NCBI RefSeq assembly: GCF_009834025.1
Contig: NZ_CP047156.1
Coordinates: 1,488,001 to 1,552,000 of the forward strand
From: Epidermidibacterium keratini
GTDB taxonomy: Bacteria > Actinomycetota > Actinomycetes > Mycobacteriales > Antricoccaceae
Length of the DNA: 64,000 nucleotides
Reading direction: 5' to 3'
This document shows positions 57,972 through 61,127 of the stretch, piece by piece. A program made the translations under genes and the position numbers. The stretch's first letter is position 1, and each line of letters opens with the position of its first letter. The notes under the pieces were generated by a model. That model saw nothing but the letters and a program-made list of their open reading frames with translations. It was not told where the DNA came from and ran no database searches.

Positions 57972-58065
57972 GCCTCGACTCTGACATATGCCGCACCCCT
58001 GCTCTTCCCAAGGCGGTTTACTCGCCGGTAGGTTGGGCGGTCAACGACTTCGATGGGACCCCCGC

Positions 58066-59553
58066 ATGCGCATGCGCACACCGTTTGCCGCGACTGGCGC
58101 CGCTCTCGCCACCCTTCTGCTCGCCTCCCCTGCCGCGGCCGCGCCCGACGGTCTCGATGCCGGACAGCCCGCGAGTCAGCAGGTCGCTACCGCGGCGGCG
58201 GCTGCCCCCGTCCAGGTCGTGCAGCTCGGCGACTCGTACTCCTCGGGCAACGGTGCGCGTGACGAGGCGGGCAATCCGGCGTACTCGGCCGATGCCCCCT
58301 CGTGCCTGCGAAGCCCCTTCAACTACGGCCAGCAGTTCGCGACATCCATTGAGGCGCAGTACATCAACGCGGCGTGCAGTGGTGCGGTCTTCGCCGACAT
58401 TCGTACGCCGAAGGCCAGCGCCGGCGTACCAGCCCAAATCGATGCCGTGACCGAGCAGACCGACGTGGTGCTGATGACGATGGGCGGCAACGACATCGGG
58501 TTCGGGCAGATCGTGGTGCAGTGCTTCGCGTTGCGCAGCGGCGACGGCTGCCGCTCGGCCATCGAGCAGGCGCAGGCCGCGATCCCGCAGCTGGAGGAGA
58601 CGGCGTACACCGAGATCTCTGCTATACGGGCAAAGATGCGCCCGGACGCGGCCTTCATCTACGTCGGCTACCCGGGCCTGACCAGCGCCGAGGAGCTGGT
58701 GCTACCGACGACTGACGGCCAGGGGTATGACATGGTCGCTGGGCTCACCGAGCTGCAGGCCGCCGGCGAAGATGCCCAGGCCGCCGCGGTTGCACGGGTC
58801 AACGCCGACTCGCCGTGCGGCGCACGCACCTTCTATCTGGACACCGTCGACGAGGCCTTTGCCGGGCACGAGATCGATCAGAGCCAGCCGGGTATCGACC
58901 CTGCCACGTGGTTCTGGAACTTCGGTGAGACCTTGACTATCGGCGAGATCTACCACCCGAAGCCGGCCGGCTGGAACGCCGAGGCGCAGCTCGTCAGCGC
59001 TCTCTACGCCGAGCAGGTCCAGACGACGCCGACGCTGAGCGTCGACCCGACGTCGGTCCTGCAGGGCGGCGAGGTCACGCTGACCGCTGACGGGTTCCGA
59101 AGCGGCGAGACCGTGCGCGTCGTACTCGCCCCGGACATCGACCAGGTCGTGACGGTCGACCAGTGCGGGACCTTTACCGGAACCATCACGCTGTCGCCGG
59201 AGACCGCGACGGGTGAGCGCACGGTCACGGCTACGTCGGAGGCGACCGGCGCGAGCGCGTCGGCATCGTTCACGGTCACCGCCGCTCCGACGACCCCGCC
59301 GCCAACTACGGAGCCCACCGCCCCGCCAACCACCACTGAGCCCACTGCGCCGACCGCGCCACCGACGACGAGCGAGTCGCCGAGCACCACCGTCGCGCCG
59401 ATCGCCGGCGGCTCGGGCGGAAAGTCCGGTTCCGGGGGCGGTCAGTTGCCGCGCACTGGAGCCGGCGGCGTCGACGAGCTCGGCTGGGTCGCGATCGCAC
59501 TGCTCGCGTCCGGTGGGGCGTTGCTGGCGGCCGGCCGGCGCCGCGTCAGCTGA
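58066..59553 (+). CDS. Secreted SGNH-hydrolase (lipase) with Ig-like domain and LPXTG wall anchor
   Basis: 495 aa. Signal peptide ends near AAA|PDG (~27). SGNH fold: GDSYSSGNG (Ser ~57), GGNDIGF (~141), His in YHPKPAGW (~297), as in Streptomyces-type triacylglycerol lipases. An Ig-like domain (~325-405), a Thr/Pro-rich wall-spanning linker and LPRTG (~461-465) plus TM and RRR tail mark it as a sortase substrate. Acts on lipids at the cell surface. Confidence 0.9.
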   Translation: MRMRTPFAATGAALATLLLASPAAAAPDGLDAGQPASQQVATAAAAAPVQVVQLGDSYSSGNGARDEAGNPAYSADAPSCLRSPFNYGQQFATSIEAQYINAACSGAVFADIRTPKASAGVPAQIDAVTEQTDVVLMTMGGNDIGFGQIVVQCFALRSGDGCRSAIEQAQAAIPQLEETAYTEISAIRAKMRPDAAFIYVGYPGLTSAEELVLPTTDGQGYDMVAGLTELQAAGEDAQAAAVARVNADSPCGARTFYLDTVDEAFAGHEIDQSQPGIDPATWFWNFGETLTIGEIYHPKPAGWNAEAQLVSALYAEQVQTTPTLSVDPTSVLQGGEVTLTADGFRSGETVRVVLAPDIDQVVTVDQCGTFTGTITLSPETATGERTVTATSEATGASASASFTVTAAPTTPPPTTEPTAPPTTTEPTAPTAPPTTSESPSTTVAPIAGGSGGKSGSGGGQLPRTGAGGVDELGWVAIALLASGGALLAAGRRRVS

Positions 59554-60244
59554 CCCGCGCCTGCACGTGATCGGGCACCGGTAGGTCGCAGTCGCTGTTG
59601 GCCACGGGGGCGCCGTACTGCACCGAGACCGGGATGACTCCGGCCCACACGGCGTTGGCCTCGACGTCGGACGCATCGTCACCGGCCTCGGCGTCGCGAA
59701 CCTTGACCGATGCCTCGTGCAGCGGCAGGGCGAGTACGGCGGTCGCGGCGAGCTCCTTGCGGGTGCTGTCACGCAGCGCGGCCCACCGGCCCGGGCATAC
59801 CTGGTCGACGACGCGCTCCAAACCGAGGGTGACTTCGGCGGGGTCGGTGACCAGCCGCGGGCGTCCAATGATCACCGCGCTGCGGTAGTTCATCGAGCTG
59901 TTGAATGCCGACCGCGCGAGCACGAGCCCGTCGAGGTGCGTGATCGTCGCGCACATCTCCTGCTCGGGTGCGGCGCGCAGACTGGTCGCGGCGACCGACC
60001 CGTGCAGGTAGAGGGTGCCGCCCTGATCCGGCCCATCGGGATCGAACCCGTACGCCGTGGGCAGCACCCGAGGCGCGCCGTTCATCAGCAGGCCGATGTG
60101 ACAGATCACGCCGGCATCCAGCACGTCGTACAGCTCGCGGCGCTCGGCCTTGCCGCGCTCGCTGTGCCGACCGAGCGCCGTACGGTCCGTCGGGCTCAAT
60201 GCGGTCGTGCGGTCCGTCGGGCTCGCTGGGTCAGTGGAAGGCAT
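59546..60244 (-). CDS. Pyridoxamine 5'-phosphate oxidase family flavoprotein
   Basis: 232 aa split-barrel: ELYDVLDAGVICHIGLLMNGAPRVLPTAYGFD, TLYLHGSVAATSL, SAFNSSMNYRSAVIIGRPRLV. Resembles FMN-binding PPOX/Nim-type proteins. ATG 60244 has CATGAT 6 nt upstream. The N-terminus repeats PTDRT-A-LSPTDRTA. Divergent from alkB across the 21-bp array; overlaps the SGNH gene by 8 nt tail to tail. Confidence 0.87.
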   Translation of the reverse strand: MPSTDPASPTDRTTALSPTDRTALGRHSERGKAERRELYDVLDAGVICHIGLLMNGAPRVLPTAYGFDPDGPDQGGTLYLHGSVAATSLRAAPEQEMCATITHLDGLVLARSAFNSSMNYRSAVIIGRPRLVTDPAEVTLGLERVVDQVCPGRWAALRDSTRKELAATAVLALPLHEASVKVRDAEAGDDASDVEANAVWAGVIPVSVQYGAPVANSDCDLPVPDHVQARVS

Positions 60245-60290
60245 GCCCAGATCATGCCCGCGCGGCGCCGAGACCCCCAACCCATTTCCG

Positions 60291-60452
60291 CGATCCGAAC
60301 GTTAATTGGCCACATCCGAGCGTTATTTTCCGCGATCCGAGAGAAGTTGAGCTCGATCCGAGAGAAGCTGCGCAGTTTCTCTCGGATCGGCAGGATTAAC
60401 GCTCGGATCGGCGGGATTAACGTTCGGATCGGCGGGATTAACGTTCGGATCG
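60291..60452. repeat. 21-bp-phased dyad array: four direct and four inverted units
   Basis: Direct CGATCCGA units start at 60291, 60312 (reads ACATCCGA), 60333 and 60354. Inverted TCGGATCG units start at 60382, 60403, 60424 and 60445. Every step is 21 bp and all pairs share the dyad centre 60371.5. Outer units carry CGTTAAT after the core; inner units carry GAGAA. Units 60411-60431 and 60432-60452 are identical. The outermost 16 bp arms (CGATCCGAACGTTAAT and its complement) are perfectly inverted. Confidence 0.95.
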
Positions 60453-60467
60453 CGGGAGGATGGAGGG

Positions 60468-61127
60468 ATGGGGTTGGAGAACGGGGAGTTGTTTGCCAGG
60501 GCGCCAGTTGAGATAGCGCCCGGCGCCGTACACGTGCCGCGCTGGCTGAGCATCGAGCGGCAAAGCGAGATCGCAGCCGCGTGCCGCGAGTGGGCACGCG
60601 GTCCCGCGCCGATGCGCCACACCGCAATGCCGCGCGGTGGGCAGATGTCGGTACAGACGGTCTGCCTGGGTTGGCATTGGATGCCGTACCGCTACTCACG
60701 CACGGCCGACGACGTCAACGGCGCGCCCGTTGCCGCCGTACCGGACTGGCTCAAAGACCTCGGGCGCGACGCGGTCGCGGCGGCGTACGGCGACCGCACC
60801 GAGTACGACGCCGACGCGGTGCTGATCAACTTCTACGACGCCACCGCCAAGATGGGCATGCACCAGGACAAGGAAGAGGTCACCGACCAGCCGGTGGTCT
60901 CGCTGTCGATCGGTGACAGCTGCACGTTCCGCTTCGGCAACCCGCAGACGCGCGGCAAGCCCTACACCGACGTGCTTCTTGAATCTGGCGACCTGTTTGT
61001 CTTTGGCGGGCCGTCCCGGTTTGCCTATCACGGCGTCCCGAAGATTTCCCCTGGTACGGCGCCTGCCGGCTGCGGCATCGAGGGCGGCCGGCTGAACTTG
61101 ACACTCCGCGAGACCGGACTGTCCTAA
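60468..61127 (+). CDS. AlkB-like 2-oxoglutarate/Fe(II) dioxygenase
   Basis: 219 aa. Oxidative demethylase family that repairs alkylated bases. Fe ligands are HxD in GMHQDKE (His ~132, Asp ~134) and the distal His in FAYHGV (~188); the 2-oxoglutarate-binding Arg is in GGRLNLTLR. ATG 60468 follows GGAGGG. The 21-bp array occupies its promoter region. AlkB-type repair function is inferred from family. Confidence 0.92.
   Translation: MGLENGELFARAPVEIAPGAVHVPRWLSIERQSEIAAACREWARGPAPMRHTAMPRGGQMSVQTVCLGWHWMPYRYSRTADDVNGAPVAAVPDWLKDLGRDAVAAAYGDRTEYDADAVLINFYDATAKMGMHQDKEEVTDQPVVSLSIGDSCTFRFGNPQTRGKPYTDVLLESGDLFVFGGPSRFAYHGVPKISPGTAPAGCGIEGGRLNLTLRETGLS

Follow-up and report, generated by a model that had tools for sequence, protein, structure and literature searches.

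Within the 64,000-nt stretch analysed here (the window) of the chromosome of the skin bacterium Epidermidibacterium keratini, a gene for a PPOX-like protein (Pyridox_ox_2, PF12900; 59546–60244, minus strand) and a gene for an AlkB-type 2OG-Fe(II) oxygenase (PF13532; 60468–61127, plus strand) are divergent neighbours, as an earlier sequence-only reading had stated, and the region between them carries a repeat array at 60291–60452. The array has its point of symmetry at 60371.5 and is built of four ATCCGA units and, after them, four units in inverted orientation, spaced at exactly 21 bp. On the plus strand, the ATCCGA units start at 60293, 60314, 60335, and 60356, and the TCGGAT units start at 60382, 60403, 60424, and 60445. 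Four phased ATCCGA triplets were found in the window versus none in 40 simulated 64-kb windows with the same dinucleotide make-up. The left array, on the minus strand, comprises two outer units of the CGTTAA or CGTTAT type (60291–60332) and two inner units of the GAGAGAA type, which is TTCTCTC on the array strand (60333–60374). The right array, on the plus strand, comprises one inner unit, TGCGCAGTTTCTCTCGGATCG (60369–60389), and three outer units of the TTAACG type (60390–60452), the last two of which (60411–60431 and 60432–60452) are identical. The inner ends of both arrays meet without a gap in a central dyad (60354–60371/60372–60389) with arms that are 94% complementary. The eight units, their phase and symmetry, and the identical pair agree with the sequence-only reading. 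On the other hand, the mirroring of subtypes that it described is inexact, being two plus two units in the left arm and three plus one in the right, and one left-arm unit is ACATCCGA, not CGATCCGA.

Each array of the window has a G-rich outer tail. The left tail (60250–60290, G-rich on the minus strand) extends into the start of the PPOX gene, and the right tail (60453–60495, G-rich on the plus strand) overlaps the start of alkB, whose start codon is 15 bp from the array. Along the strand that runs into each array, the best 78-nt C/G ratio was 1.9 for the left array (plus strand), and the C/G ratio was 4.1 for the right array (minus strand). Two other features were observed nearby. The N-terminal coding part of the PPOX gene contains a 27-bp tandem duplication (60179–60224; CGTACGGTCCGTCGGGCTC twice), which doubles an SPTDRTAL stretch. 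The gene at 57988–59553 (plus strand) encodes a GDSL/SGNH-type secreted protein with the motif GDSYSSG and a C-terminal LPRTG plus hydrophobic anchor; its product is likely a sortase-anchored lipase/esterase. GDSL enzymes of E. keratini have been described (PMC12351110).

The window array is two back-to-back copies, a rarer form, of a species-specific polar element, here in a divergent promoter. The genome of E. keratini EPI-7T contains at least 67 arrays with 281 units of the 21-bp repeat, spread across the whole chromosome; these counts come from 54 regions, which include 145 of the genome's 154 phased triplets, and a few arrays are therefore absent from them. Searching the 4,018,808-bp genome with GATTAACGTTCGGATCG (up to 3 mismatches) gave 173 matches versus none for the reversed control pattern, and searching with TTCTCTCGGATCG (up to 1 mismatch) gave 126 matches versus 1 for the control. 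The phase was kept genome-wide, a point on which the sequence-only reading had proposed a check: 202 of 214 unit-to-unit steps were 21 bp, nine were 22 bp, and one each was 20, 23, and 42 bp. Units of the exact type numbered 164 inside arrays and only 3 outside, and neighbouring units within one array were often identical. The boundaries and flanks of the arrays are variable, with no terminal sequence in common beyond the units. Neighbouring arrays faced inward in 14 of 18 cases (p = 4e-6 against an expectation of one in four, which is not independent of the gene-end preference described below).

On the strand carrying CGGATCG, the arrays have a polar order, from TTCTCTC units (inner) through TTAACG units (outer) to a G-rich, C-poor tail of approximately 40 nt. 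The outermost unit was of the ACG type in 55 of 67 arrays, and the sixth unit from the outside was of the TTCTCTC type in eight of eight. The GC skew of the tail was 0.44 in the first 30 nt past the outer unit and 0.12 in the next 30 nt, and then disappeared; the 45 arrays with a gene 3' end there and the 22 with a 5' end were alike in this. No composition bias was found on the inner side. On the opposite strand, the outer boundary lies within a stretch with C in excess of G that spans about −40 to +48, with central values of C 0.53 and G 0.14. Single arrays form no RNA hairpins (folding z of −0.02 on one strand and +0.79 on the other), and the strand read from the gene side was the one less structured than its shuffles (z +0.79). 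The long hairpin suggested earlier therefore stands for the window, which is one of only three back-to-back pairs giving a long inverted repeat (260.8 kb, the window, and 3165.2 kb), and fails for the family, whose single arrays do not fold. A G-quadruplex in the tail was rejected because G runs were fewer than in shuffles (107 vs 130), and an intrinsic terminator, a GC-rich hairpin followed by a T run, was rejected because no excess of hairpins precedes the T-rich inner unit. One exceptional locus (L055, genome ~1660780–1660830) has a hairpin of −37 kcal/mol in the 40 nt directly before its T-rich inner unit, which resembles an intrinsic terminator of the classical kind placed next to an array.

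When genes were called by a simple codon-usage script with the arrays masked, no array lay deep inside a called gene. Of the 67 arrays, 45 had a gene 3' end and 22 a gene 5' end on the outer side, and 39 had a gene 5' end on the inner side. A few of the 5' assignments are probably missed genes, and two of the arrays so assigned carry the complement of CTAACC at their boundary. Twelve arrays begin exactly 3 nt past a stop codon, and in seven the stop lies inside the first unit. Arrays occur at only about 2% of gene ends. Stop codons near outer ends were TAA in 34 of 38 cases, mostly in the context CTAACC, compared with 38 of 228 (17%) in other genes (p = 1e-18). The last 30 coding nucleotides of array genes had a C-over-G skew of +0.36 versus +0.02, seen at third codon positions. 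A 78-nt window with C/G of at least 2, to which the units themselves supply part of the C/G excess, was present at 74% of array gene ends versus 5% of others, the background being the same regions plus a 400-kb sample; in unselected 400 kb, it was present in six of seven array genes versus 14 of 319 others. Eight proteins end in SER encoded by the first array unit, TCCGAACGTTAA, which also supplies their TAA stop, indicating that arrays extend or replace protein C-termini (SER-ending proteins were seen at L040, L037, L044, L061, L068, L075, L083, and other loci). Since TAA is the sole stop codon without G, codon use, stop choice, and tail could all result from G being avoided in the RNA around the gene end, and we infer that this single cause unites them. 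The flanking genes examined were functionally mixed, with no pathway in common.

Two loci, a small sample, were compared with those of relatives. At 260.9 kb, a 739-aa gene has its convergent neighbour within a few nucleotides in one relative, whereas in E. keratini a double array of about 145 bp lies between the two genes. This double array is flanked by two TAA stops, while relatives end the 739-aa gene with TAG or TGA. The 549-aa gene at 1,658.6 kb is followed by an array in none of the relatives, and its G-poor end in E. keratini, ACCGCCATCTCCTAA, has AACGCCATCGGCTGA as its counterpart in one of them. A fourth relative (G004), from the same family, carries a C-rich 26-bp tandem array (L264:3740–3909; six copies of CACGGTCGTCGAACCGCGGGCCCCTT) about 20 nt past the stop of the 739-aa gene. 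This array, unrelated to those of E. keratini, is the only one of its kind in G004, and beyond it lies an irregular cluster of repeats spaced 50 bp apart (L264:4048–4232).

The arrays were found in E. keratini only. No such arrays were present in 40 relatives, including four genomes of the same family, and in an order-wide search of 399 genomes the other 398 had zero to three unrelated repeats. The same survey that detects the arrays in E. keratini found no dispersed array family in 400-kb samples of three relatives from sister genera. One scan of approximately 85,000 GTDB species representatives, a set from which the genome of E. keratini itself may be absent, for three phased TCGGATCG gave 61 stretches, none with TTAACG or TTCTCTC units. 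Four phased ATCCG in viral contigs gave 86 stretches, none with E. keratini units among those read. The plasmid and phage collections gave only two 35-bp hits, one in a coding gene of Paenarthrobacter and one in a Gordonia phage gene; we judged these to be chance, as well as 18 single matches of TTAACGTTCGGATCG in viral contigs. A 21-bp array type of Bacillus was not found in the plasmid collection, and three Rfam matches were all far below the gathering scores. Nothing on a 21-bp repeat of E. keratini was found in the literature, and the genome paper lists 0 repeat regions (PMC10143877). These results agree with the earlier suggestion of an undescribed repeat class. Different 21-bp arrays were observed in IMG/VR contigs. 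A tandem array of ATCCGATACCAGCGCTAGACG and variants, unrelated to the E. keratini arrays, is present in many of them (L096, L101, L104, L107, L108, and L111; also L117, L118, L132, L165, L167, and L173), and some AT-rich contigs (L097, L139, L146, L131, L129, L152, and L138) have an independent 21-bp phased dyad array with units of type ATCCGTTTGACTCGGATTTCT.

Among known systems, mycobacterial MIRUs are actinobacterial tandem interspersed repeats that supply the stop codon of the preceding gene, as the arrays do. However, the MIRU unit is far longer and situated chiefly inside operons, while the E. keratini units are 21 bp and have two ordered subtypes and a skewed tail. We rejected membership because the MIRU unit is several tens of bp and mycobacterial, whereas the unit here is 21 bp and absent from the other 398 genomes of the order. 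Iterons and partition sites share direct repeats two helical turns apart, but are located at one replication or partition locus, versus about 67 dispersed gene ends for the arrays. As had been argued from the lack of spacers, the arrays are not CRISPR: their units are contiguous and homologous over their whole length, with no unique spacers. REP/BIME elements of enterobacteria and pseudomonads resemble the arrays in being extragenic, in tens to hundreds of copies, biased toward gene 3' ends, and mosaic in their units, and gyrase binding has been reported for them (PMC2817692). In contrast to the E. keratini units, which are non-palindromic and head to tail at 21 bp, REPs are imperfect palindromes moved by RAYT transposases, and the E. 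keratini genome has no match to PF01797 (Y1_Tnp, RAYT transposase). Membership was rejected because single arrays do not fold (both z values above) and no Y1 transposase is present, although the extragenic downstream placement does fit. Nor is a recognised transposon end apparent: boundaries and flanks vary and, in a search that covered Y1 transposases, none was found. The same observations bear on a MITE, which would have fixed terminal inverted repeats, a target-site duplication, and a related transposase.

Rut sites are defined as C-rich, G-poor, unstructured, ribosome-free RNA of 70–80 nt (PMC6407284), and the arrays resemble them in having 70–80 nt with C > G in unstructured, ribosome-free RNA past a stop codon. 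Ordinary rut sites, unlike the arrays, lack a conserved sequence and a fixed 21-bp repeat and do not form a dispersed family. For incoming transcription, the order is a C-rich, G-poor stretch of about 80 nt, then 21-bp units of type CGATCCGAACGTTAAT, and then 21-bp units of type CGATCCGAGAGAA; at gene ends, the C-rich stretch runs from the last ~40 nt of the gene, across the TAA stop, into the first units. As the best reading, we tentatively propose, at slightly under an even chance, that the arrays are a lineage-specific one-way transcription terminator or insulator stopping transcription that arrives from the outer side. In its favour are the common polarity of the 67 arrays, their placement at gene 3' ends, the TAA stops, and the C-over-G bias and low structure of the strand read from the gene. 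The unstructured RNA, free of ribosomes just past the stop codon, would recruit Rho, which the E. keratini genome encodes. The phased units would either lengthen the Rho site or hold, on one face of the DNA, a protein that makes RNA polymerase pause and so lets Rho release it. BIME elements are reported to facilitate Rho-dependent termination (PMC2817692), a precedent for a repeat in such a role; if the proposal holds, the array would work like a BIME-type Rho terminator without being a BIME. Back-to-back copies would work in both directions. At 260.8 kb, where the flanking genes converge, the pair would terminate both transcripts, and at PPOX/alkB, because of the direction of the arrays, it would keep antisense transcription of either gene out of the shared promoter region. 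The inward orientation of 14 of 18 neighbouring arrays fits insulation of the interior. Against termination, 22 of 67 arrays, including that of the window, have their outer side at a gene 5' end, so that antisense transcription is all they could stop, and only about 2% of gene ends carry an array.

Rho alone leaves the repeats unexplained, since a Rho site can do without a conserved unit and without a 21-bp phase. That indels and single units are so rare is a further argument for something reading the DNA at two-turn steps, perhaps a roadblock protein, and the units may bind protein cooperatively on one DNA face, as suggested earlier. A decidedly doubtful extension is that the lineage's own cooperative DNA-binding protein coats the units and works with Rho, forming a dedicated, recently evolved one-way barrier that delimits insulated transcription domains and takes its direction from the two ordered subtypes. 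The exact two-turn phase with hardly any indels, the near lack of single units, and the spread over the entire chromosome would also suit chromosome-architecture sites. In that case, a protein of the nucleoid or of DNA topology, either gyrase-like as in BIME-2 or a cooperative binder specific to the species, would occupy the units at transcription-unit ends, and termination would be secondary. We regard this as unlikely because it leaves unexplained why G avoidance extends to the stop choice and final codons of the neighbouring gene, and does so on one side only.

Confinement to one lineage, identical adjacent units, and the ~145 bp of arrays between two genes that nearly abut in a relative would fit selfish interspersed repeats with no function for the cell, which inserted beside stop codons and multiplied through copying and slippage. 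We consider this rather unlikely: the genome has no Y1/RAYT transposase, the variable boundaries and flanks share no terminal sequence beyond the units, and ordered subtypes with a bias reaching outside the repeat into changed codons are not expected of inert insertions. That the units are promoter or operator arrays, namely regulator binding sites or outward promoters (TAACGT fits a TANNNT −10 box), seems very unlikely, although the array ends 15 bp from alkB, so that the alkB promoter must be within or very near it, and 39 of the 67 arrays have a gene 5' end on their inner side. Most outer sides lie at gene 3' ends, no pathway is common to the flanking genes examined, and TAACGT is TAACGC in about one-third of the TTAACG-type units. 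As a general role, the promoter regulatory array of the sequence-only reading is thus not borne out.

Classical hairpin-plus-U terminators are scarce in high-GC actinobacteria. The array family offers about 67 replicate loci for polar termination or insulation; its members mark gene ends in a fixed direction, accompany TAA stops, and reshape the last codons of unrelated genes. If the one-way terminator or insulator reading is true, E. keratini would exemplify how a bacterium evolves an entire family of elements at gene ends, one missing from its sister genera.
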